Virus record (IMG/VR): IMGVR_UViG_3300008262_000066
Coordinates: 26,136-90,135 of that record
Source of the DNA: a virus
Strand: one strand, 5' to 3'
Length of the DNA: 64,000 nucleotides
Shown here: piece after piece, positions 43,600 to 54,892 of the stretch
Position numbering within the stretch: the first letter of the stretch is position 1
Layout: each line of letters begins with the position of its first letter
Notes under the pieces: generated by a model
The model's input: only the letters and a program-made list of their open reading frames with translations
Told to the model about the DNA's origin: nothing
Database searches by the model: none
Program-made: the position numbers and the translations under genes

Positions 43600-44411
43600 A
43601 GATAGCAGTATTGATAAGTGGGGAGTATAGAACATTTGGACATTGTAGAAGAACAATGGATTTTCTGTATGATCCACGTGTTGATATATACGTAAGTACA
43701 TGGGATAGCTCATCTTACGTTAGCCCTAAAATTAATCTAGACCATACAGAATTGGTTAATTATGACCGTGTTGTTAATGATTTACACAAAGATGCTACAG
43801 TACTAATTGAACCACAAAGTTTAATTAAGGAAGTAAAATATAGCACTAAGATGATGCATCGTTGGATATCAGGGTTTAATCTTATAAAAGAAAGCAATAA
43901 TCACTATGACTATGTGATTGTAATGCGACCTGATTTGTTCTTTAATTACAGTTGCCCAATCGACTTAAACAGTATAGAACAATATGAAAACTCATTAGGA
44001 GTAGCATGGGCTACTGACGAATACATTACTAATAGAAAACTACAAGATGTTTTGTTTCTTTCAACCTATAGCAATATGAATAAGTTGTTTAGTACATTAG
44101 ACATTAACAAATGGATTATCGGTGGTGAGGGTGATTGGCATACGTGGTGGTTTAATCATTGCAATAATACATTACCAATTGCGTATGCTAAAAATTTTAG
44201 TAATTGCACTTTCTATCGCTATCTAACTGATAACAATAACCCTACTTTTGATGATGTAATGAATGCACAACATAATTGGCGTGATTTACAGTTACTCAAT
44301 CAGATAGATATTATGGGAAGAGATGCACTCAAAACTGCATGGCCGGAGAATGTGATTCAAAATGCAGAAGATAAGTGGAACAACGGGTATTTTAATAAGT
44401 TTATCAAATGA
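43596..44411 (+). CDS. Glycosyltransferase-like protein (ISGEYR family)
   Basis: A 271-residue protein beginning MKIAVLISGEYRTFGHC, with VDIYVSTWDSSS, MMHRWISGFNLI, and YDYVIVMRPDLFFNY. The same landmarks occur in the N-terminal half of the next protein (AVLISGEYREF, YYFSTWAETS, MINRWHEGLKLI, VIILIRPDLYIEY). The [IV]-x-RPDL motif after a Rossmann-like start is typical of a little-characterised family in surface-polysaccharide clusters. No catalytic residues can be named with confidence. Four-base overlaps on both sides imply coupled translation. Confidence 0.6.
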   Translation: MKIAVLISGEYRTFGHCRRTMDFLYDPRVDIYVSTWDSSSYVSPKINLDHTELVNYDRVVNDLHKDATVLIEPQSLIKEVKYSTKMMHRWISGFNLIKESNNHYDYVIVMRPDLFFNYSCPIDLNSIEQYENSLGVAWATDEYITNRKLQDVLFLSTYSNMNKLFSTLDINKWIIGGEGDWHTWWFNHCNNTLPIAYAKNFSNCTFYRYLTDNNNPTFDDVMNAQHNWRDLQLLNQIDIMGRDALKTAWPENVIQNAEDKWNNGYFNKFIK

Positions 44412-45841
44412 ACATAGCAGTGTTAATTTCTGGTGAGTACAGAGAATTTGAAATAGCGCATCCAAGTTGGGAATTCGATAAATGCGGCAAAGTGGATTAC
44501 TATTTTTCAACATGGGCAGAGACCTCTGAGGTTAACGATAACTTAAACATCAATATACATGAGAATGTAACAATTGATAGAATACAAAGATATTTACCAA
44601 TTACTGACTACGTTATCTCTCAGCCACTGTATTACTTATATAACCAGCAAAAAATGATTAATCGTTGGCATGAAGGTTTAAAACTAATACATAAAAGTAA
44701 CAAAACATACGATGTAATCATTCTTATACGACCTGACTTATATATTGAATATAGTGATTTGTTACAAGACTTCATATCCAAAATGAACTCTAATACCATG
44801 TATTGTTACGGTGACTTTCACCGTAATGGAATTGGTAACGTCATGGATCAAATATTCATCGGAGATAGCAATACGATTCTAAAGTTGTTAGACATAGATT
44901 ATACAACCCCTAAGTTAATTGAGACAACTAACATACATGAATTTTTAGCAGAACATTTTAATCGATTGTTTAACTCTATCCAATTAATACCGTTTAATAA
45001 GTTCTACATAGCTAGAAGTAATAGTAGAGGTTTAGCTTCATACTCATATGAAATTATAAAAACAAACTCCGAAATATGGTATCAGCAAAAACATCTACGA
45101 GAAACTGTTGTAACTAAATTTAAAGGGTTTTCTAAATCACACGTGATGTTGATAGAAAATTCATTCAGCAAACGCTTTGTTAGAAAACGCAAAAACGTTC
45201 AACGTAACCATGACAAGATGAAAGAGTTGGCATCACATGGCTTCAACGTACCTAAAATTATAAACATGCGTAACGATACGCTAGATATGGAATACATATC
45301 GGGTATTGATATGAAAACGTTTATATTACGGCACGATGTAAAGCTGTTAGCAAACTCTATCATAGAAACAGTTGATAGGTTTAAGTACACAAGTAAGTCT
45401 AAAAACTATGCAAACACATATCAAGAACAGTTAGCATTGATTGATTGTAGTGAGTTGCCATTTACATCCGATGAATTATATATTAGATTACCAAAAGACT
45501 TACCACAAAGTCTATGTCATGGTGATTTCACATTAGAGAATCTACTATACAGTAATGGTAAGTTTTATATGATAGATACTGTAACCGGCCCATATGATAG
45601 TTGGGTATTTGATATTGCTAAGATGAGACAAGACATAGATGGTCACTGGTTTCTTAGAGACGGTAAGACTGAACTTACGGTTCAATTAAAGATTTTACAC
45701 GATATATTAGAATCAGCTTTTGCTATTGCATTTGACAATAATTTATACATATTGATGCTACTCAGAGTGTACAGACATTGTAAAGTAGGTACAACAGAGC
45801 ATAGATTGATATTAGAGGAGATAAAGAGATTATGGAAGTAA
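44408..45841 (+). CDS. Fusion: ISGEYR glycosyltransferase-like domain plus APH-type kinase domain
   Basis: A 477-residue two-domain protein. Residues 1 to about 225 are a paralogue of the preceding gene. From about 230 an aminoglycoside-phosphotransferase-like kinase follows. MLIENSFSKRFVRKRKN resembles the N-lobe, MEYISGIDMKTFI the hinge, CHGDFTLENLLY (H371, D373, N378) the catalytic loop, and MIDTVTGPYDSWVFD (D390) the metal-binding aspartate. Such kinases in glycan clusters typically phosphorylate sugars or choline-like groups rather than drugs. The adjacent nucleotidyltransferase could activate the phosphorylated product. The next ATG overlaps its end by 10 bases. Confidence 0.7.
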   Translation: MNIAVLISGEYREFEIAHPSWEFDKCGKVDYYFSTWAETSEVNDNLNINIHENVTIDRIQRYLPITDYVISQPLYYLYNQQKMINRWHEGLKLIHKSNKTYDVIILIRPDLYIEYSDLLQDFISKMNSNTMYCYGDFHRNGIGNVMDQIFIGDSNTILKLLDIDYTTPKLIETTNIHEFLAEHFNRLFNSIQLIPFNKFYIARSNSRGLASYSYEIIKTNSEIWYQQKHLRETVVTKFKGFSKSHVMLIENSFSKRFVRKRKNVQRNHDKMKELASHGFNVPKIINMRNDTLDMEYISGIDMKTFILRHDVKLLANSIIETVDRFKYTSKSKNYANTYQEQLALIDCSELPFTSDELYIRLPKDLPQSLCHGDFTLENLLYSNGKFYMIDTVTGPYDSWVFDIAKMRQDIDGHWFLRDGKTELTVQLKILHDILESAFAIAFDNNLYILMLLRVYRHCKVGTTEHRLILEEIKRLWK

Positions 45842-46509
45842 TTGTACCTGCCGCCGGATTATCTACCCGTTTTCCGGGTACTGTACCAAAATACTTGCTT
45901 ACTGATAACAATGGTAAGATAATGTTACACAATGCTATAGAACCTTATATAGGTAAATATAATGTTACTGTTGGTATACTTAAACAACATGATGAGTTGT
46001 ACAACAGCGGAGATATTATCAGAGAGCTAGGTGTTAACGTTGTAGTGTTACCTGAAGTAACTAGGGGTCCAGCTGATACTGTATATCAGATTATAAATCT
46101 AGCACAAATACATATTGACCATTCTTTTTTCATTAAAGATTGTGATAGTTACTTTGACCATGAAGTTTCAGATGGTAATTATATTTGCATATCTACGGTA
46201 AGTGAGCATGATGTTCTATATAAGATAGCAAACAAGAGTTTTGTTATAGCAAATGAACATGGTATAGTTCAAAGTATAGTAGAAAAGTCTATTGTTAGTA
46301 ATGAGTTTTGTGTGGGCGGATATAAGTTTAATAGAATTTATGATTTTGTATCAGCGTATGAAAAGTTGATACATAGTATGACAAATGAATTCTTTGTCAG
46401 TCATATCATTCAGTATAATATTAGTAATGGTAAAACATTCTTAACTAAGAAAGTTACTGAGTATGTTGATGTAGGAACTATTAAAGAATGGCAAGAACAA
46501 AATGTTTAA
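45832..46509 (+). CDS. Sugar-1-phosphate nucleotidyltransferase
   Basis: A 225-residue protein with the nucleotidyltransferase signature VPAAGLSTRFPGTVPKYLL at residues 4-22 (the G-x-G-T/S-R-x-x-P-K pattern). FFIKDCDSYFDHEV carries the metal-binding aspartates, and the C-terminal segment ends in YVDVGTIKEWQE, usual for this family. It should join a sugar 1-phosphate or similar phosphate ester to a nucleotide. The gene overlaps the APH-containing fusion and the tiny ORF after it, suggesting a kinase and nucleotidyltransferase pair acting in sequence. Some family members use phosphocholine, so the substrate is open. Confidence 0.78.
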   Translation: MEVIVPAAGLSTRFPGTVPKYLLTDNNGKIMLHNAIEPYIGKYNVTVGILKQHDELYNSGDIIRELGVNVVVLPEVTRGPADTVYQIINLAQIHIDHSFFIKDCDSYFDHEVSDGNYICISTVSEHDVLYKIANKSFVIANEHGIVQSIVEKSIVSNEFCVGGYKFNRIYDFVSAYEKLIHSMTNEFFVSHIIQYNISNGKTFLTKKVTEYVDVGTIKEWQEQNV

Positions 46510-46603
46510 TCTTATTAAGAATATATACTTAAAGATGGTACGAGAGTACAAATATCGCAAAAGGTTAAAGGCAATGAAGAAACGTGATCCCTTTATTTAT
46601 TAA
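46502..46603 (+). CDS. Tiny basic phage protein
   Basis: A 33-residue ORF, MFNLIKNIYLKMVREYKYRKRLKAM with the ending KKRDPFIY. It overlaps the previous gene by eight bases and ends three bases before the carbamoyltransferase ATG. The start (MF..I...YL) and the ending KRDPFIY are a pattern I recall from tiny ORFs in marine T4-like phages, so it is probably translated. An N-terminal amphipathic helix and strong positive charge suggest membrane or nucleic-acid contact. No function is known to me. Confidence 0.6.
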   Translation: MFNLIKNIYLKMVREYKYRKRLKAMKKRDPFIY

Positions 46604-46606
46604 ACC

Positions 46607-48103
46607 ATGAACTACATAGGAATATCAGCAGGGTTTCACGATGCCGCATTGAGTATTGTAGATAATAGTGGTAATATTCTATTTGCTGGACATAGTGAAC
46701 GTTACAATAAACACAAGCACACTAAACACTTAGGCATTGACATTATAGAAGATGCCAAACCATACCTAACATCTAGTGATATCGAGGTTCATTATTACGA
46801 AAGGCCGCTAATTAAATATTTACGGCAATTGCGTAGCGGAGAAAAAACTATGATATCTAGTTTATCTGCAAGAGAGATCATAGGTACAGGCTTACTTCAC
46901 CGTTTAGAAGATGGACGCAAGAGTAAGATTCATACACATAATCATCATTTAAGTCATGCGGCAGCAGGGTTCCAAACTAGTCCATACACTGATGCCACAG
47001 TGGTTGTTATTGATGCTATTGGTGAATTTGATACTATTACTATTTGGAATGCTTACTATGATAAGAACGGTGTAGCGCAATATAAGAAACTATGGGGACA
47101 ACAGTACCCAGATAGTATAGGGTTATTTTACTCCGCAATGACTAAGAGAGCAGGATTAAGCCCGATGGATGAAGAGTACATTTTAATGGGTATGTCTGCT
47201 TACGGAAACATTCTTCCGTTGAAAGAAATGTCTACATCATTAATTAAGTCATACAAAAATATAGTGTTCAATGATAACTTACATATAGGTGTGCCTGATG
47301 ATTTTATAAAGGATGCTAATGTAATGGATATCGCATATAGTACACAACTAATAGCAGAACAGTTGATTACTTCAGTGATTAGTAAAGCAAGAATGCTAAG
47401 TAGTAGTAAGAATTTAGTATATGGCGGAGGAGTAGCATTAAATTGTTTAGCAAATCGATTATTAGGGGATTATTATGATAACATTTGGATTATGCCTAAT
47501 CCTGGCGATGCTGGTTCTAGTCTTGGTGCATGTGCGCTCGGTTACGGTAAACAGCTTAATTGGACTAGTGCTTATTTGGGTCATACTATACCTGGTGATT
47601 ACCCTGTTAATCGTCTACTTGATAATCTTATTACCACTGGCATTGTTGGTGTGGCTAGTGGTCGTGCTGAGTTTGGACCTAGAGCCCTTGGACATAGAAG
47701 CTTACTTGCAGACCCAAGAGGAAAAGAAATAAAGGATAAAGTAAATGAAATTAAACATAGACAAAAATTTAGACCCTTTGCGCCAGTTATTTTGGAGGAG
47801 TATACTGATATGTATTTTGATATCCCTTGTGGCTGGAGTAACAGTAGGTATATGCAAGTCATCAGTCGTTGTCGGGTTCCTGACTTATTTCCTGCTATTA
47901 TTCATTATGACAACACTAGTAGGGTACAGACTGTTCCAAAGGATGGCTCCGGAATACGAGAACTACTAGAAAAATGGTATGTTATGACCGGTTGCCCTAT
48001 GCTACTTAACACTAGCTTGAATGTACGAGGTGAACCAATGGTCAATGACAGAGCGGATGCAGATCGATTTGAAAAACTATATGGTATAAAAGTACTATCA
48101 TAA
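46607..48103 (+). CDS. Carbamoyltransferase (NodU/CmcH family)
   Basis: A 498-residue protein. The N-terminal domain shows ISAGFHDAALSIVDNSG and HNHHLSHAAAGFQTSPY, whose histidines form the iron/carbamoyl-adenylate site of this family, and then LMGMSAYG. The C-terminal YrdC-like half includes NLVYGGGVALNCLANRLL, NPGDAGSSLGACALGYG, SGRAEFGPRALGHRSLLADPR and a terminal MLLNTSLNVRGEP. Members move a carbamoyl group from carbamoyl phosphate onto sugar hydroxyls. In this cluster the natural target is a sugar in the phage-encoded glycan. Length is slightly below the usual 540-600 residues. Confidence 0.9.
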   Translation: MNYIGISAGFHDAALSIVDNSGNILFAGHSERYNKHKHTKHLGIDIIEDAKPYLTSSDIEVHYYERPLIKYLRQLRSGEKTMISSLSAREIIGTGLLHRLEDGRKSKIHTHNHHLSHAAAGFQTSPYTDATVVVIDAIGEFDTITIWNAYYDKNGVAQYKKLWGQQYPDSIGLFYSAMTKRAGLSPMDEEYILMGMSAYGNILPLKEMSTSLIKSYKNIVFNDNLHIGVPDDFIKDANVMDIAYSTQLIAEQLITSVISKARMLSSSKNLVYGGGVALNCLANRLLGDYYDNIWIMPNPGDAGSSLGACALGYGKQLNWTSAYLGHTIPGDYPVNRLLDNLITTGIVGVASGRAEFGPRALGHRSLLADPRGKEIKDKVNEIKHRQKFRPFAPVILEEYTDMYFDIPCGWSNSRYMQVISRCRVPDLFPAIIHYDNTSRVQTVPKDGSGIRELLEKWYVMTGCPMLLNTSLNVRGEPMVNDRADADRFEKLYGIKVLS

Positions 48104-48111
48104 GTATCTTT

Positions 48112-50808
48112 ATGCTACGAGATGTGTTTTATTACGGGGACAAACCCAATGTACATCCCCGAGAACGTTACGCCAAAGACTTTGATACAGCTAAACAACT
48201 AGCTACAACTGAACACTTTTGGATTGTTAACGAGTTCTGTGATTACAAAAATATTGATTGGGATTTTGATTTTGAATTCTTACCCGATGAAGATGTATGG
48301 GCAACAGACCATATCAATATCTGGCCTAGTCAATGGCAGAGTGATAGTGGTACATGGTTATGCTCAGTAAAAGCTGACAATGTAAAAATATATCGCACAG
48401 ACGTAGAACCTGTACATAGAAAAAACGTCATTTCAAGACACTGGGTGAATACTGAAAAGTTTGATACCACTCAATTTGACTATAGCTGGCATCCTGATCC
48501 CGCCGAACCACCATTCATATTTCAATTTGGTACTCAATGGGCAAAAACACATGGTCCTCAATACGTATCAGATGGTGCAACTAATATTAAGTATATAACT
48601 GAACCTAATGCTAAAATTAAAGCGGATATGACACATTGGGAAAATGCTGTAATTAAAGATTTTGATTATAGCTGGCATCCAGACGCAACTAGTCCACCGT
48701 ACATATATCAGTTTAATACGTTGCTTGATCTAGACCCCGGCCCTAGATATGTTGTACCGGGCCATAATAATAAAGTAGTTAACATTGACCGTGATATAAG
48801 TAGTCTTAATTTCCCAGTATACTATATACAATCATCATTGGATGAGTTGATTGAACAGCACCCTGATGAAGTCTTCTGGGCATTGCGTGATAACATTGAC
48901 TATGATAAGTTTGATTTTACATGGCGTCCGACTATTGCTAACTTTAAGTATATAAATGTGTTTGGTTCTACTGAGAGTGAATCAACACAAAGTTACTTTG
49001 TCAATACTAAAATGATAAAGAAAGGATACAAAGATTTTAACTATATTGAGAACAAACAGTTAGATGATGAGTATCTCGCTAGGTTGTTTAAACCGATAGA
49101 TATGTTCTACATTGATAGAGGAAACCCGCAATCACAAACACAATTTAATGCACTTAAAGAACGCTTCCCTAATATTAAAAAGACACGTTACATAGGATCA
49201 TGGACTGATACTATTGCAAGATGTATTAATCATTGTAGCACAGAACTATTTTGGGTATTGAATAGTGAACTAGATTATAGCGAGTTTGACTTCATATACT
49301 ATCCTAATCCATGGCAAATGCGAATGATACATATATTTGGAACACAATGGACTCATTGGGGTAACACATATGTTATTAATAAAGAACTCTTTTTAGAGAG
49401 TACAAAGTATGTTAAGGTCATTGAACATTTAAACGGTCTTAACTTTGTAAAAACTAAAAGGGCTAAAGCATCGAATGTATTATATGATATTGTTTACATT
49501 GACCATGGCAATACTGATATGTCACACTTAGTAGAGCAGGGTAAGATAGTTGTTAAGTATAGAAATAGTTATATTGACACATTCAAAGACTTGTTACCGT
49601 TGCTCCCTGAAAAGAAAGAACATTATGTTTGGGTAGCTAGTTCTATATGTGATTACAGTTCATTTGATTTCACATACATATGTGATCCTTTTACTAGAGA
49701 ACAACTACATGTATTCCCTAGTGATAGTCAGAAGTTTGGTGATACGTTCTTAATCAATGTTAATAAACTGCGTGAAGTTATTAATGATGTAGAGTTACTT
49801 GAAGATACTGAAGTAAATTATAACAAGCAACAGCAAGTATCTAGATTACCTGCACCAACATTCACTAATACAGATTCACATGCAAATAGTATTAATGTTG
49901 ACTATAACTTTCCCTATGCTGTGTTTATGACTGCTGATAACATTGTAGAGTACAAAGATACTGAAACAATCAATCTATGGAGTAATAAAGATAAGAACAT
50001 ATTGATTACACACGAAGGCGGGACACGCATCATTGTACCCAAAGAAGCTAGTAAAACAGTTACTAATGAATTGTATGAATATCCATATATAAAAACTATA
50101 TCAAAGACTAATACTAGTAAGCCATTAGATATTGTATTCTTTAGTAACGGTGAAACTGTTGCCGATCAAAACTATGAACATCTGTTGAATGTTACTAAAG
50201 GTATGCCCAACAATGTTAAACGCATTGATAAAGTATCTGGTCGTGTAGCTAGTCAACATGCGGCAGCTAACATATCAGATACTAATTGGTATTTTCTTGT
50301 TAATGCTAAGTTGAAAGTGTCAGATAAATTTGATTGGCAATGGCAACCTGATAGATTACAAGAACCAAAACATTATATATTCAACGCATTGAACCCAGTT
50401 AATCAATTAGAGTACGGTCATATGGCTATTGTTGCTAACAACAAGAAACTTACATTGAATACAGAAGTAAATGGGTTAGACTTTACTTTGGCTAGTAAGC
50501 ATCAGTCGCTAAATATTCTGTCAGGTGTTGCTCTGTTCAATACTAGTGAGTTAGAAACATGGCGTACCGCATTCCGTGAGACACTAAAGATTAAAGACAG
50601 TGTAGTAAAGAACAATGACACCGCAAGCAAATATAGATTGCGTAATTGGTTAAACGTTGCAGAGGGCGATTATGCCCAAACATGTATACAAGGTGCTAAT
50701 GATGCTGTAAAGTATTATGAATCAGTAGATGGTAACATGGACAAGTTAATGCTCAGTTATGATTGGGCATGGTTGAGTGAATATTATAAACAGCTTTATG
50801 GAAAATAA
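48112..50808 (+). CDS. Large protein with seven aromatic repeats, glycan-island protein of unknown activity
   Basis: An 898-residue protein with a degenerate repeat occurring about seven times. Repeats begin near residues 35, 110, 175, 254, 379, 505 and 726. The best copies read HWVNTEKFDTTQFDYSWHPD, then PPFIFQFGTQW, then GP-Y. Later copies read LFWVLNSELDYSEFDFIYYP and HIFGTQWTHWGNTYVIN. The segment IDMFYIDRGNPQSQ (about 340) and residues 770-898 (ILSGVALFNTSELETWRTAFRE) resemble transferase-like parts of the protein at 40955. It may be a multi-module glycosyltransferase or a glycan-binding scaffold. No signal peptide or membrane segment is visible. It sits between the carbamoyltransferase and a methyltransferase. 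Confidence 0.6.
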   Translation: MLRDVFYYGDKPNVHPRERYAKDFDTAKQLATTEHFWIVNEFCDYKNIDWDFDFEFLPDEDVWATDHINIWPSQWQSDSGTWLCSVKADNVKIYRTDVEPVHRKNVISRHWVNTEKFDTTQFDYSWHPDPAEPPFIFQFGTQWAKTHGPQYVSDGATNIKYITEPNAKIKADMTHWENAVIKDFDYSWHPDATSPPYIYQFNTLLDLDPGPRYVVPGHNNKVVNIDRDISSLNFPVYYIQSSLDELIEQHPDEVFWALRDNIDYDKFDFTWRPTIANFKYINVFGSTESESTQSYFVNTKMIKKGYKDFNYIENKQLDDEYLARLFKPIDMFYIDRGNPQSQTQFNALKERFPNIKKTRYIGSWTDTIARCINHCSTELFWVLNSELDYSEFDFIYYPNPWQMRMIHIFGTQWTHWGNTYVINKELFLESTKYVKVIEHLNGLNFVKTKRAKASNVLYDIVYIDHGNTDMSHLVEQGKIVVKYRNSYIDTFKDLLPLLPEKKEHYVWVASSICDYSSFDFTYICDPFTREQLHVFPSDSQKFGDTFLINVNKLREVINDVELLEDTEVNYNKQQQVSRLPAPTFTNTDSHANSINVDYNFPYAVFMTADNIVEYKDTETINLWSNKDKNILITHEGGTRIIVPKEASKTVTNELYEYPYIKTISKTNTSKPLDIVFFSNGETVADQNYEHLLNVTKGMPNNVKRIDKVSGRVASQHAAANISDTNWYFLVNAKLKVSDKFDWQWQPDRLQEPKHYIFNALNPVNQLEYGHMAIVANNKKLTLNTEVNGLDFTLASKHQSLNILSGVALFNTSELETWRTAFRETLKIKDSVVKNNDTASKYRLRNWLNVAEGDYAQTCIQGANDAVKYYESVDGNMDKLMLSYDWAWLSEYYKQLYGK

Positions 50809-50810
50809 GA

Positions 50811-51419
50811 ATGCCGTATAAAACAGATATATTGGGATGGATGGTTGAGTCCGAGTTAAAAGTCTTAGAGACTATTGCAAAACAAGTTCCTGTCAATGGA
50901 AATATTGTAGAAGTAGGATCAATGTTTGGTAGAAGTGCTGTTTGCTTTGCAATGTCAGCAGATCCCAGTGTTACCATCAATTGTATTGACTATTTTCCTA
51001 CTGATATGAGACAACAGCATGGTTGTTCAGATGAGGATTCAATTAAAAACAGTTTCCCTATTGCTGATAAACTGTATAATGTTGAGCAAGACTTTATAGA
51101 GAATACCAAAGAGTTTAAGAATATCAATATGATAAAGGGTGATAGTCCGCATATATTAGTATATACTCCTGATCCTATTGATTTGTTTTTCTTAGATGCA
51201 GGGCATGCCAATCCTAATGATTGGGACAATTTATGTCACTTCATACCCTATATGAAATTGAATGGTATTATTGCAGGACATGATTATCACTCTACACAGT
51301 TCCCTGATGTATGTGAGAATGTTAGACGATTAGAAGAATTATTTGATATTAAAGCGGAATTATATCCCGGCTCAAGTATTTGGTCTATAAAAGTGACTAA
51401 ATTAATAAATAAAGTATGA
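50811..51419 (+). CDS. Class I SAM-dependent methyltransferase
   Basis: A 202-residue protein with the Rossmann motif I GNIVEVGSMFGRSAVCFAMS (about residues 28-47), motif II VTINCIDYFPTD, and DPIDLFFLDAGHANPNDWDN as the acidic motif. A GIIAGHDYHSTQFPDVCENV segment is typical of the Methyltransf_24-type family. These enzymes methylate sugars or other small substrates in polysaccharide clusters. It starts two bases after the previous stop and its TGA overlaps the next ATG. Confidence 0.8.
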   Translation: MPYKTDILGWMVESELKVLETIAKQVPVNGNIVEVGSMFGRSAVCFAMSADPSVTINCIDYFPTDMRQQHGCSDEDSIKNSFPIADKLYNVEQDFIENTKEFKNINMIKGDSPHILVYTPDPIDLFFLDAGHANPNDWDNLCHFIPYMKLNGIIAGHDYHSTQFPDVCENVRRLEELFDIKAELYPGSSIWSIKVTKLINKV

Positions 51420-51511
51420 AAACTTTTGTTTTGTTAGTTATAGGAGTCTGTATTGCTGTATGTATATACTGGCTAATGGACTGGCAAAGTCACCATGAAG
51501 ATGGTGAGTAA
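51416..51511 (+). CDS. Small single-span membrane peptide
   Basis: A 31-residue ORF starting at ATG 51416, overlapping the methyltransferase stop. KTFVLLVIGVCIAVCIYWLM forms one hydrophobic helix, followed by a polar tail WQSHHEDGE. It ends at the edge of the tmRNA acceptor piece. It is short and could be chance, but the coupled start and clean helix favour translation. Role unknown; a small inner-membrane peptide is the simplest reading. Confidence 0.45.
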   Translation: MKTFVLLVIGVCIAVCIYWLMDWQSHHEDGE

Positions 51512-51579
51512 AGTTATTGCTGTACGAAGCAAAGAGAAAAGTGTCTTGGAAGGGGGTGCGAATCCCCCCAGGTCCACCA
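51512..51579 (+). ncRNA. ssrA: Permuted tmRNA, acceptor piece (tRNA-like 3' part)
   Basis: The T arm is perfect: GGGGG (51552-51556), loop TGCGAAT, CCCCC (51564-51568). The acceptor 3' strand CAGGTCC (51569-51575), discriminator A and encoded CCA (51577-51579) follow. CAGGTCC pairs over seven positions (one G-U) with GGGCCTG at 51680-51686, the 5' end of the coding piece, which lies downstream. That reversed order defines a circularly permuted tmRNA. A hairpin TTGCT/AGCAA (51517-51532) probably marks the 5' part of this piece. The exact 5' end is estimated. The mature molecule would be two RNAs held by base pairing, charged with alanine and used to rescue stalled ribosomes. Confidence 0.87.
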
Positions 51580-51590
51580 TAAGGAAGTTT

Positions 51591-51692
51591 ATGAATATTG
51601 AATGGTATCACGTATTGTTATGTTTAGCAGTTCCGCTAAACTACTTTTACTGGATAGTATTACATAGATTCTTTATGAAGGGCCTGATATAG
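51591..51692 (+). CDS. Possible membrane peptide inside the tmRNA intervening segment
   Basis: Between the CCA end and the start of the coding piece, ATG 51591 follows GGAAG by three bases and opens a 33-codon frame. The product contains WYHVLLCLAVPLNYFYWIV, one clear hydrophobic helix. It ends in TAG within the first bases of the coding piece. This segment is normally removed during maturation. Translation from the precursor or from a passing mRNA is possible but unproven. A chance ORF is a serious alternative. Confidence 0.3.
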   Translation: MNIEWYHVLLCLAVPLNYFYWIVLHRFFMKGLI

Positions 51693-51860
51693 ATTCGACA
51701 GGGCAACAAGTAAATTAGTGGACAGCTCGGCAAAGCAGAAGCCGTTAGGGTTGGGGGAACTCGGCCGTAGAAGCAAAAAAGTAATCGCAAACGATTCACA
51801 ATTCCTATTGGCAGCAAACGCCTAATAGCGAGGTAGTTATACCTTGTAACCAAAAATAGC
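51680..51860 (+). ncRNA. ssrA: Permuted tmRNA, coding piece with tag ORF ANDSQFLLAANA
   Basis: The piece begins with GGGCCTG (51680-51686) and the conserved D-region block GATTCGACAGGG. A pseudoknot-like region follows (CGGC...GCCG near 51729-51745), then AAAAAAGTAATC, which matches the conserved upstream element before the resume codon of bacterial tmRNAs. The resume codon GCA is at 51787 and the tag runs to 51822: A-N-D-S-Q-F-L-L-A-A-N-A, followed by TAA TAG. A hairpin AGGTA/TACCT (51831-51844) follows, then a terminator. The tag starts with the standard AND but ends in ANA rather than the usual LAA or VAA. The 3' end is estimated. Confidence 0.88.
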
Positions 51861-51884
51861 ATAGGGACTTCGGTCCCTATTTTT
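51861..51884 (+). terminator. Rho-independent terminator of the tmRNA gene
   Basis: ATAGGGAC (51861-51868) pairs perfectly with GTCCCTAT (51873-51880) around a TTCG tetraloop and is followed by TTTT. An A-rich run just before it makes the element usable from both strands, so it could also end the minus-strand fragment at 51877. Confidence 0.85.
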
Positions 51885-51996
51885 CTGGGTATTGCCATGT
51901 CCAAGTACCGTCTTTTCTGTATAAGCGTTTTCTTCCTGTGACGGTAGCAGATAATTTTCCTGCGCTTTTTCTTCCATTTTCGGCAGCAGTAGGCAA
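51877..51996 (-). pseudogene. Possible C-terminal fragment of a homing-endonuclease-like protein
   Basis: The minus strand holds an open frame of 39 codons from a TTG at 51996, with a stop in frame just upstream. It encodes PTAAENGRKSAGKLSATV followed by TGRKRLYRKDGTWTWQYPEK. The K-x-SA-x-x-x-GRK arrangement is reminiscent of the NUMOD-type DNA-binding tails of phage homing endonucleases, though this is recalled similarity only. No ATG or upstream catalytic domain remains, so it reads as the tail of a lost gene next to the tmRNA. It may be only a chance frame. Confidence 0.35.
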
Positions 51997-52005
51997 AGAG
52001 GATTA

Positions 52006-52055
52006 TGAAACAATTTAATTGTTTCACGGAAAGGTCACTAAGGTGACCTTTTATT
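52006..52055 (+). terminator. Tandem hairpins, probable terminator
   Basis: Two 9-bp perfect hairpins follow one another: TGAAACAAT/ATTGTTTCA (52006-52026, TTA loop) and AAAGGTCAC/GTGACCTTT (52030-52051, TAAG loop). The second is followed by a T-rich TTATTTT. This looks like a strong stop between the tmRNA unit and the heptose cassette, so the cassette probably has its own promoter nearby, though I could not identify one with confidence. Confidence 0.6.
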
Positions 52056-52090
52056 TTGGCTTTAACTACACAATGATATATAATCATACT

Positions 52091-52393
52091 ATGAGCAATG
52101 AACTAGCAAAATATATAAATTCTCGTCGCCGTTTCCGTGATGAAACTGCAGTCAAAAAACAAGTTAAGATTGCAAAAGCGCATGGTCTTACTAATAAAGA
52201 TAAAGCTATAAAAGAACCACATCGTTTAGCTAAACATCATGCAATGGATTGTGGTCAACCAGGATGTATGCTTTGCGGTAACCCTCGCAAAACACATAAA
52301 GATAAACTAACTGCACAAGAAAAACGTATGTATCAGGATGTAGATAAAACTAACGATAAACATAGCAATGGAATTAAACCGGAAGATATATGA
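52091..52393 (+). CDS. Small Cys/His-rich conserved protein
   Basis: From ATG 52091 the protein has 100 residues. An upstream in-frame ATG at 52019 lies inside the terminator hairpins and is less likely. After a basic helical start (YINSRRRFRDETAVKKQ) comes HHAMDCGQPGCMLCGNPRKT, in which three cysteines and nearby histidines look like a metal-binding knuckle, then LTAQEKRMYQD. Similar short proteins occur in phages and bacteria without assigned function. Its stop overlaps the next ATG by four bases, so it is coupled to the nucleotidyltransferase gene. Confidence 0.65.
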   Translation: MSNELAKYINSRRRFRDETAVKKQVKIAKAHGLTNKDKAIKEPHRLAKHHAMDCGQPGCMLCGNPRKTHKDKLTAQEKRMYQDVDKTNDKHSNGIKPEDI

Positions 52394-52785
52394 CAACAGT
52401 ATTTGTTAACGGAACATTTGACATTCTTCATTTAGGTCATATCGGCCTACTTGAACACGCTAAAAGCTTAGGTGATGAACTTATTGTCGGTATCGATAGT
52501 GATGCTAGAGTAAAAGTATTGAAGGGTGAAAATAGACCCATCAATACTGAAAGAGAACGAGGATTAATGCTACTTGCAACCAAGTATGTAGACAAGGTAT
52601 TTGTATTTGATACAGATGTAGAACTAACTGAATTAGTTAGTACATGTGATATTATGGTTAAAGGCAGTGATTATGTAGGTAAACGTATCATTGGTAGCGA
52701 AGTATGCCCTCAGCTTGTATTTTTTGATCGAATAGATGAATACTCAACCACACAAAAAATTCAAAATATTATTGATCGGGGATAA
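52390..52785 (+). CDS. HldE C-terminal-type nucleotidyltransferase (ADP-heptose synthase domain)
   Basis: A 131-residue cytidylyltransferase-fold protein. VNGTFDILHLGHIGLLEHAKS carries the H14-L-G-H17 nucleotide-binding motif. GIDSDARVKVLKGENRPIN followed by ERGLMLLATKYVDKVFVF, and MVKGSDYVGKRIIGSE, match the domain of HldE (RfaE) that transfers AMP to heptose 1-phosphate. Related enzymes such as glycerol-3-phosphate cytidylyltransferase share the fold. The adjacent HldE-like kinase and HldD-like epimerase favour the heptose reading. It overlaps the kinase gene by 50 bases in another frame, so the bacterial fused HldE is split here, with domain order reversed. Confidence 0.8.
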   Translation: MTTVFVNGTFDILHLGHIGLLEHAKSLGDELIVGIDSDARVKVLKGENRPINTERERGLMLLATKYVDKVFVFDTDVELTELVSTCDIMVKGSDYVGKRIIGSEVCPQLVFFDRIDEYSTTQKIQNIIDRG

Positions 52786-53500
52786 TTGTTTAGATGTATA
52801 TCAATTTGGAATAGTTGATAGACTAAGCCCCGAAGCTCCTGTACCTATATTTGTTCCTCTTTACAAAGAAGAACGCAGTGGTATGGTTGGCAACGTATAT
52901 AACAACTTAGTTAACTTAGATTGTGACGTAACATTATATTCAGGTAGCACAAGTGTTAAGACCAGAATGATTGATGCTAGAAGCAAACAACAAATCATTC
53001 GGGTAGATAATGATATAATATCTGAACCATTGACGATTGATGATATCAATATTGAGCATGATGCTATTGTAATCAGTGACTACAATAAAGGGTTAGTATC
53101 ATATGAATTGATTGAAAACATATTAGCAGTAGCTAAATGCCCCGTGTTCATTGATACTAAATTAACTGATTTAGAACGTATGCAAGGTGCATGGGTTAAA
53201 ATTAACAACCTAGAATATAGTAGGATTAAAAGTGAATGTTCAGGTCTAATCGTAACTAATGGTGCACGTGGTGCTAGTGTAATATATCACGATATACAAT
53301 GTCCTGCTACTAAAGTAGAAGTTGTTGACGTTACTGGTGCGGGAGATACTTTCTTATCAGCATTAACATATCAATATCTAGTTACTAAAGATATAAAATC
53401 AGCAGTTGAATTTGCCATCAATGCATCAAGTATAACTGTACAACACTTGGGCGTTTATGCACCAACACTAAATGAAATAGAAATAGAGGGACTTAGATGA
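52736..53500 (+). CDS. HldE N-terminal-type heptose-7-phosphate kinase (PfkB family)
   Basis: A 254-residue ribokinase-fold protein. ILLIGDNCLDVYQFG (about residues 11-25) and RLSPEAPVPIF are the characteristic start of HldE kinases. VISDYNKGLVS is the DYxKG motif, and VDVTGAGDTFLSAL (about 196-209) holds the GAGD anion hole and catalytic aspartate. The usual kinase domain has about 318 residues, so this one is trimmed. The first 16 codons lie inside the nucleotidyltransferase gene in another frame. The first strand is encoded there, so the overlap seems real. No clear ribosome site precedes ATG 52736, which suggests coupling. Confidence 0.83.
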   Translation: MNTQPHKKFKILLIGDNCLDVYQFGIVDRLSPEAPVPIFVPLYKEERSGMVGNVYNNLVNLDCDVTLYSGSTSVKTRMIDARSKQQIIRVDNDIISEPLTIDDINIEHDAIVISDYNKGLVSYELIENILAVAKCPVFIDTKLTDLERMQGAWVKINNLEYSRIKSECSGLIVTNGARGASVIYHDIQCPATKVEVVDVTGAGDTFLSALTYQYLVTKDIKSAVEFAINASSITVQHLGVYAPTLNEIEIEGLR

Positions 53501-53853
53501 GATTAGAAGGGTTTGTAGAAAAAGGTTGGGGACATGAATTTATCTTTGCTACTAATGATAAGTATTGCGGTAAAATTCTATCCTTCAATAAAGATGCAAA
53601 ATTCAGTATGCATTTTCATGGTGAAAAAGATGAAACATGGTATGTGTTAACTGGGGAATTTATCGTAAGACACATTGATACTACTAATGCAGAAATTAAT
53701 GAAACAAAGTTAACTACAGGGGATACATGGCGTAATCTTCCTTTATTCCCACATCAAATTATATGCATAGAAGAAGGTGTTATAGTTGAAGTTAGTACAC
53801 CGGATAGTGTAGAAGATAATTACAGAGTCATGCCCGGAGATAGTCAAAAATGA
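53497..53853 (+). CDS. Cupin-fold protein (sugar isomerase/epimerase-like)
   Basis: A 118-residue single cupin. KGWGHEFIFATNDKYCGKIL opens the fold. FSMHFHGEKDETWYVLTGEF is the first metal motif (H-x-H then E), and LPLFPHQIICIEEGVIVEVSTP the second, with its histidine. Similar cupins (mannose-6-phosphate isomerase type II-like) occur in nucleotide-sugar clusters. In this cassette a sugar-phosphate isomerase role is possible. Bacterial heptose synthesis needs the isomerase GmhA, which is not related to cupins, so replacing it is only speculation. Four-base overlaps on both sides. Confidence 0.72.
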   Translation: MRLEGFVEKGWGHEFIFATNDKYCGKILSFNKDAKFSMHFHGEKDETWYVLTGEFIVRHIDTTNAEINETKLTTGDTWRNLPLFPHQIICIEEGVIVEVSTPDSVEDNYRVMPGDSQK

Positions 53854-54143
53854 AATACATAGTAGATATAGATGGTACAATATGTACTGTAACCAACGGT
53901 GATTATTCAAACGCGGAGCCTTATCTATCACGCATAGCACATTTTAATATGTTATATGATGCGGGAAATGAGATACATTATTGGACAGCACGTGGTGCTA
54001 ATACTGGAAAGAATTGGGATGATATTACATTAATGCAGTTAGCCGATTGGGGCGCAAAATACACCACTGCTAAAACAGGTAAGCCTGCATATGATATATG
54101 GATTGATGATAAAGCATTTAACATAGGAACATATTTCAAATGA
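53850..54143 (+). CDS. Small HAD-family phosphatase
   Basis: A 97-residue HAD protein: VDIDGTICT (D6, D8) is the nucleophile motif, IHYWTARGANTG gives the motif II threonine, and YDIWIDDKAFN the terminal acidic pair. Short HAD proteins of this type sit in capsule and glycan clusters and dephosphorylate sugar phosphates. By position it could take the role of GmhB, which removes the 7-phosphate of heptose bisphosphate, although GmhB is roughly twice as long and a different subgroup. Confidence 0.75.
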   Translation: MKYIVDIDGTICTVTNGDYSNAEPYLSRIAHFNMLYDAGNEIHYWTARGANTGKNWDDITLMQLADWGAKYTTAKTGKPAYDIWIDDKAFNIGTYFK

Positions 54144-54892
54144 AAATATTATTAACAGGATATAAAGGATTCATTGGCTCTAACATGCTCAAAATGTTAG
54201 ACGGTCATGAAGTTGTAACATATAACTGGGGTGATGCATTACCTTCAGTTGCAGGATTAGATTGGGTCGTCCACATGGGCGCTATCAGTAGCACTATTGA
54301 ACGCAACATTGAAAAGATTATGTTACAGAATTACGATTTTAGCTGTTGGCTATTGAATGAGTGCATTGCAAACAACGTAAACTTTCAGTATAGTAGTTCA
54401 GCAAGCATATATGGATTGAGTACAGAGTTTGTTGAAACTAGTCCAGTCGATCCTCGCACACCTTATGCTTGGACAAAGTACTTGTTTGAACGTTTTGCTA
54501 ATAGAGAATGCAATATACGTATACAGGGTTTTAGATACTTCAATGTGTATGGTTCAGGTGAAGAAGAAAAGGGAGATCAAGCTAGTCCTTTCTATAAGTT
54601 TAAAAAACAAGCAGAAGAAAACGGATTTGTTAAATTATTTGAAAACAGTCAGCACTATAGACGAGACTTTGTCCCAGTAAAACAAGTATGTCAAACACAT
54701 ATTGATTTCTTTAATGTAAAAGAATCAGGTGTATGGAACGTAGGTACAGGAACACCTATGAGTTTTTATGATGTCGCTAAACAATTTACTGATAACATCA
54801 TAGAGATACCCTTACCTGATATACTAAAAGATAGTTATCAAGAATTCACATGTGCAGATATGACTAAAACCAATACATCATTGGGTAGATAA
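54140..54892 (+). CDS. NAD-dependent sugar-nucleotide epimerase, HldD-like
   Basis: A 250-residue short-chain dehydrogenase-type epimerase. The NAD motif G7-Y-K-G10-F-I-G13 is at the start, SSSASIYG supplies the catalytic serine region, and Y109-x3-K113 (YAWTK) is the catalytic pair. IQGFRYFNVYGSGEEEKGD, QASPFYKF and FENSQHYRRDFVPV are diagnostic of ADP-glyceromanno-heptose 6-epimerase (HldD) as opposed to GalE. E. coli HldD has 310 residues, so the C-terminal part is shortened. It would convert ADP-D-glycero- to ADP-L-glycero-D-manno-heptose, completing the activated sugar made by the two HldE-like enzymes upstream. Confidence 0.83.
   Translation: MKILLTGYKGFIGSNMLKMLDGHEVVTYNWGDALPSVAGLDWVVHMGAISSTIERNIEKIMLQNYDFSCWLLNECIANNVNFQYSSSASIYGLSTEFVETSPVDPRTPYAWTKYLFERFANRECNIRIQGFRYFNVYGSGEEEKGDQASPFYKFKKQAEENGFVKLFENSQHYRRDFVPVKQVCQTHIDFFNVKESGVWNVGTGTPMSFYDVAKQFTDNIIEIPLPDILKDSYQEFTCADMTKTNTSLGR

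Follow-up and report, generated by a model that had tools for sequence, protein, structure and literature searches.

Circularly permuted, two-piece tmRNA genes have already been published in phages. Phage Melnitz carries a two-piece ssrA of alphaproteobacterial type for which a glutamine riboswitch is reported, and 53 two-piece cases, most of them aquatic, are counted there among isolate genomes (PMC9004378). Extra content in the intervening sequence of a permuted tmRNA is also on record: PMC11915505 reports a tRNA-Ala gene and a repetitive element there, and mentions ORFs for homing endonucleases within the group I introns of some tmRNA genes. In the two-piece tmRNAs of Betaproteobacteria (RF01850/RF04321) an acceptor piece, a spacer and a coding piece follow one another in this order, with a T arm, an acceptor stem containing a G-U pair, a beta-like tag and a terminator.

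The locus described here shares all of these betaproteobacterial features and, like Melnitz, is a permuted ssrA in a T4-like phage (PMC9004378). Unlike the betaproteobacterial genes it is phage-borne, its tag ends in -NA, it scores just below their subtype cut-off, and a protein gene lies within its spacer. The last of these is its most unusual feature and was absent from the initial annotation. No spacer protein gene is described for Melnitz or the other aquatic phage tmRNAs in the accessible portion of PMC9004378, and the extra spacer content in that of PMC11915505 is not reported to be protein-coding, whereas we find at least 51 families of protein genes in such spacers. The arrangement resembles the ORFs of tmRNA group I introns in that a protein gene occupies a part removed from the mature RNA (PMC11915505), but there is no intron here, the spacer would be cut out by tRNA-type processing, and none of the nested proteins that we scanned is a homing endonuclease by Pfam. 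We found no description of a protein gene in a tmRNA spacer in the literature, and an earlier mention may exist in the original papers (PMC516066, PMC16621). Very probably, this is a beta-type phage permuted tmRNA gene that has come to use its intervening sequence as a slot for small protein genes.

The stretch analysed, hereafter the window, is 64,000 nucleotides of IMG/VR record IMGVR_UViG_3300008262_000066, a 90-kb virus contig encoding a T4-type major capsid protein gp23 (E=1.5e-99) and thus belonging to a T4-like myovirus; it is 99.96-100% identical to a 180-kb contig (L011) and to L050 over the stretches compared. ARAGORN calls positions 51487-51916 as one tmRNA in the permuted form with tag ANDSQFLLAANA, and the Rfam model RF04321 (tmRNA_permuted) aligns over its entire length at 51518-51825 with 101 bits against a cut-off of 47 (E=1.6e-18, whole window), the only Rfam family above its curated cut-off in the window. 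Both place the acceptor and CCA part upstream of the tag-coding part. The seven-base-pair acceptor stem joins GGGCCTG (51680-51686) to CAGGTCC, with a single G-U pair, G3-U70, which is the alanine identity position; the CCA is encoded in the DNA, the T arm is canonical, and the tag frame opens at resume codon GCA (51787) and is closed by a stop (Table 1). On sequence evidence, the region 51518-51825 is thereby confirmed as a circularly permuted tmRNA, and the covariance model search bears out the phage-borne two-piece tmRNA proposed in the initial annotation, whose seven-position acceptor pairing, T arm, resume element, tag ORF and terminator were all found in place.

Table 1. Features of the tmRNA locus in the window, and domains encoded in the spacers of related loci.
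Feature	Position	Strand	Description and basis
Upstream small ORF	51416..51511	+	MKTFVLLVIGVCIAVCIYWLMDWQSHHEDGE, then stop; ATGA-coupled to methyltransferase gene; stop codon abuts tmRNA region
Acceptor (tRNA-like 3') piece	51518..51579	+	T arm, CAGGTCC 51569-51575, CCA 51577-51579; RF04321 model start 51518, mature 5' end of piece putative
Intervening sequence	51580..51679	+	100 nt, placed by position between CCA and acceptor 5' strand; removal expected by RNase P at 51679/51680 and 3' trimming to CCA
Helix 5' strand	51580..51586	+	UAAGGAA, partner 51669-51675
Shine-Dalgarno	51581..51585	+	AAGGA, 1 nt past CCA, 5 nt ahead of ATG
Nested ORF	51591..51692	+	33 aa, MNIEWYHVLLCLAVPLNYFYWIVLHRFFMKGLI, then stop; one predicted membrane helix; final 13 nt including stop within mature tmRNA
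Helix 3' strand	51669..51675	+	UUCUUUA, beside RNase P site
Coding (mRNA-like) piece, 5' part	51680..51786	+	Acceptor 5' strand GGGCCTG, D-region GATTCGACAGGG, pseudoknot region, resume element GTAATC; sequence, Rfam
Tag reading frame	51787..51828	+	ANDSQFLLAANA, two stops; -NA end instead of usual -LAA; ARAGORN
Intrinsic terminator	51861..51884	+	
Thioredoxin with WCGPC	L165		Pfam 4e-21
DUF2061	L125		Pfam 3.5e-20
Oxidored-like PF09791	L068		Pfam 1e-11
GNAT	L219		Pfam 2e-6
CxxCxxCC	L248		Pfam 1e-6

The tmRNA gene lies within a cluster of sugar or surface-polysaccharide genes (44408-54892) that includes a carbamoyltransferase, a methyltransferase, a cytidylyltransferase, a PfkB kinase, a cupin and an NAD-dependent epimerase; the cytidylyltransferase and the PfkB kinase resemble the two parts of a heptose-activating enzyme. 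Just upstream of many related tmRNA genes (L254, L260, L265, L101, L236, L245) there are sigma-70-like promoters (TTGACA, about 17 nt, TATACT) together with a late-promoter-like box, AATAAATA. No sigma-70 match of that kind is found on the + strand of the window.

Within the tmRNA clan the best subtype is beta_tmRNA (RF01850), aligned over the whole model at 82 bits (E=3.5e-25), 2 bits short of its curated cut-off of 84, so that the window tmRNA is a divergent relative filed only as closest to the betaproteobacterial subtype; the other clan members scored lower. The alpha subtype is not the best match, and relatives of the window tmRNA carry tags of the ANDxxFALAA type. Because RF01850 scores best in the clan, the capture from SAR11 or other Alphaproteobacteria suggested in the initial annotation is not supported. 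A search of 85k bacterial and archaeal genomes for the exact D-region motif gave zero matches. In the same genomes a pattern of T arm, acceptor, CCA and AAGGA, which covers one acceptor/T-loop class, matched two unrelated genomes, neither with a permuted tmRNA by RF04321; ARAGORN calls one match a standard tmRNA and the other not a tmRNA. For the one sequence class covered, these scans agree with a phage-specific arrangement.

The nested ORF of the window takes up most of the 100 nt between the CCA end and the acceptor 5' strand and runs 13 nt into the mature coding piece; a Shine-Dalgarno sequence stands right behind the CCA, and the ATG comes 5 nt after it. Its product has a single hydrophobic, membrane-type segment. 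The family has further nested members (L003, L010, L209) as well as free-standing ones (L208, L202, L205), and a second, similar group is nested in L002 and L222, while in L129 and L244 its members stand free immediately upstream of the tmRNA. Comparison of the window ORF with its relatives gives an excess of synonymous changes (p=0.01 against L209, p=0.002 against L208 and p=0.001 against L202), with no signal in the other frames. This points to purifying selection on the window ORF, although the signal is modest, with few changes in a short ORF. Small membrane proteins of lytic phages often serve host takeover or exclusion, and such a role for this protein is only a guess.

Viral contigs were first scanned with the D-region motif, which is blind to the spacer. 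The 86 stretches recovered have spacers of two kinds, one mostly short (25-174 nt) and lacking an ORF, the other led by AAGGA and filled by an ORF. Wider scans brought the collection to at least 323 loci with at least 229 distinct spacers. Among the matches listed, AGGA occurs within the first 12 nt of 112 of 229 distinct spacers, and a Shine-Dalgarno-led ORF of at least 20 aa is found in 104 of 229; by single linkage of BLASTP matches the spacer ORFs fall into at least 51 families. The share of distinct spacers with a Shine-Dalgarno sequence and an ORF varies among three spacer-blind scans, being 21/46 (46%), 21/74 (28%, among the matches listed) and 6/42 (14%). Two ORFs occur together in some spacers, and individual ORFs reappear in other combinations: MIKVIV is second in L190 and has a homologue standing alone in L008, and MENLAKF is second in L221 with the similar MENFSKW alone in L014.

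It could be argued that the spacer is ordinary non-coding RNA and that the ORF is a chance frame in AT-rich sequence, since the window ORF has just 33 aa and many spacers contain no ORF (117 of 229, among the matches listed, lack a Shine-Dalgarno sequence). Pooling 12 family pairs, which are counted as independent and come from different families, we observe 102 synonymous against 91 non-synonymous changes (pN/pS 0.22, p about 5e-25), whereas out-of-frame controls on the same pairs give pN/pS of 1.21 and 1.38; the changes fall 46, 29 and 118 times at the three codon positions, so that third positions dominate. Frame-specific purifying selection of this kind is not expected of a chance frame, nor are the five spacer ORFs that exceed curated Pfam cut-offs (Table 1), the start codons placed 3-9 nt past the Shine-Dalgarno sequence in nearly all cases, or the free-standing homologues. 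We regard a chance frame as very improbable, and for the class as a whole it is already contradicted by the selection pool and the Pfam domains. That the spacer ORFs are genes is, at the level of sequence, well supported.

Five isolate types carry a permuted tmRNA without a Shine-Dalgarno-led spacer ORF (Xanthomonas X1 and Rb1, and Stenotrophomonas, Pseudomonas and Alcaligenes phages), and a nested gene did not turn up in any isolate; three spacer ORFs compared with isolate phages by tblastn gave no match. Separately, in eight loci (L024, L068, L109, L149, L230, L234, L237, L259) a frame of the Oxidored-like type (PF09791) fills the spacer without a start codon. The AAGGA seen in this family (L149, L230 and others) was rejected as a Shine-Dalgarno sequence, since it belongs to Lys-Asp codons and the spacer offers no start codon. 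Followed upstream, the frame stays open as far as an ATG in the acceptor piece, and tmRNA sequence may thus itself be coding there. The permuted tmRNA gene of L038 contains a tRNA-Arg(ccg) according to ARAGORN (2738-2811), a situation resembling the reported spacer tRNA-Ala.

Spacers of both kinds are closed by a helix that adjoins the acceptor stem. Its mean length is 10 bp, compared with 4 bp for shuffled spacers, and of the 9 outer pairs about 8.5 form in either kind. Where a Shine-Dalgarno sequence is present it is located in this helix in 65 of 68 spacers. The fifth helix pair is mostly C-G in spacers lacking the Shine-Dalgarno sequence, and G-C or G-U in those that have it, a compensatory change which shows conservation of the helix and also how the ribosome-binding site could have arisen. 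In folding predictions the mean probability that the Shine-Dalgarno sequence is unpaired is 0.05 in the precursor (0.08 in the window) and rises to 0.43 (0.54 in the window) when the 3' strand of the helix is taken away.

We propose that the two-piece tmRNA precursor and the mRNA of the nested protein can be one and the same transcript. Directly past the CCA the slot provides a Shine-Dalgarno sequence, and in half of the families its conserved ...TTTCTTTATGAT end also contains a stop codon. Both ends of the slot sit in the helix that closes the spacer beside the acceptor stem, and the ribosome-binding site is therefore predicted to be hidden in the folded precursor; translation should then need either an unfolded transcript or loss of the 3' strand of the helix after the RNase P cut. 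We infer from these predictions that the folded precursor is untranslated and that translation and tmRNA folding are mutually exclusive on any one molecule, such that both products would be made and folding would decide which. The masking of the Shine-Dalgarno sequence may be a side effect of a helix that maturation requires, and the helix may also regulate the nested gene. A stronger version, which we put forward tentatively as a possibility, is that the spacer is an RNA-gated expression cassette, in which the maturation helix also locks the nested gene's ribosome-binding site, each transcript is either matured or translated, and the contents pass between phages at a fixed locus.

The contents of the slot do vary at one syntenic position. 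Among contigs with the same upstream gene as the window, the spacer holds no ORF in L087, MENFSKW in L014, MNVAQ in L044 and a 122-aa ORF in L217, and identical spacers are paired with different tags (e.g. L002, L015, L074). It follows that spacer and tmRNA body are exchanged separately.

The helix and the position of the stop codon bear on another interpretation, that the nested ORF is a regulatory leader and not cargo, either because its translation controls tmRNA maturation or because the RNase P cut yields a nonstop mRNA on which tmRNA would in turn act; ArfA feedback is a precedent for the latter. The Shine-Dalgarno sequence does lie in the maturation helix, and a ribosome that halts at the common stop position, -4 to -2, would sit over the site of cleavage. 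For the window ORF and those of several families the RNase P site comes before the stop (which is at +13 or later in 7 of 48 families), so that cutting takes the stop away. In most families, though, the stop precedes the cut, so that a nonstop product is not conserved, and the proposal that every nested ORF becomes a nonstop mRNA upon RNase P cleavage is ruled out. The contents are also unrelated across the 51 or more families, enzyme folds included, and free-standing relatives exist, and we consider a regulatory leader unlikely.

In the reading that we prefer, of a slot for small protein genes within a tmRNA gene, the mature tmRNA would be expected to rescue ribosomes together with SmpB of the host. 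A search of the 90-kb record and of 11 further phage records yielded no SmpB gene, which means that rescue, if it occurs, would depend on the host protein; the phage control of ribosome rescue or proteolysis envisaged in the initial annotation is conjectural. The tag of the window ends in -LLAANA and those of most relatives in -ALAA. ClpXP recognises the C-terminal LAA of ssrA tags, and a weaker degradation signal is a fair prediction for the -NA form.

These same features raise the possibility that the tmRNA is a decaying passenger derived from a host and devoid of rescue function, with the nested gene alone mattering: the phage has no SmpB that we could find, the window tag ends in -ANA and not -LAA, and some relatives have an unusual T loop, GGCAGTG. 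Yet the acceptor stem, G-U pair, CCA, T arm, resume codon and tag of the window are all intact, as are the tags in most of 143 loci. Furthermore, -A(A/V)NA ends recur in five different phage tmRNAs (ANDSQFLLAANA in the window, ANDDTFLLAANA in L250, ANDSQFLQAVNA in L133, ANDSQYLVAVNA in L076 and ANDARFLMAVNA in L456), which suggests selection rather than decay. A decaying passenger is thus improbable in our estimation.

Other departures from the usual form were noted among the related tmRNAs. Tags of about 27-28 aa, which is unusually long (e.g. AKANTTVTVSGKNVKFSARTAKESLAV), occur in L003, L024, L015, L032, L112 and L114, where the other tmRNA parts look ordinary. The non-canonical T loop GGCAGTG replaces TTCGANT in L209, L093, L098, L125, L131, L133, L168 and L179. 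L209 also has GGATCGATTGGG in place of the D-region GATTCGACAGGG; with T loop and D-region both altered, the two loops seem to change together.

If this interpretation is correct, the gene for a stable RNA of the translation machinery doubles as an mRNA, and the locus would offer a natural case in which tRNA-like RNA processing and protein translation compete for one transcript. The spacers would hold a hidden repertoire of at least 51 families of small phage proteins at positions where annotation sees non-coding RNA. Exchange of their contents among related phages would make the spacer a marker of recent gene flow, and the -NA tag ends would make it possible to test whether a phage alters the degradation signal that rescued proteins receive.
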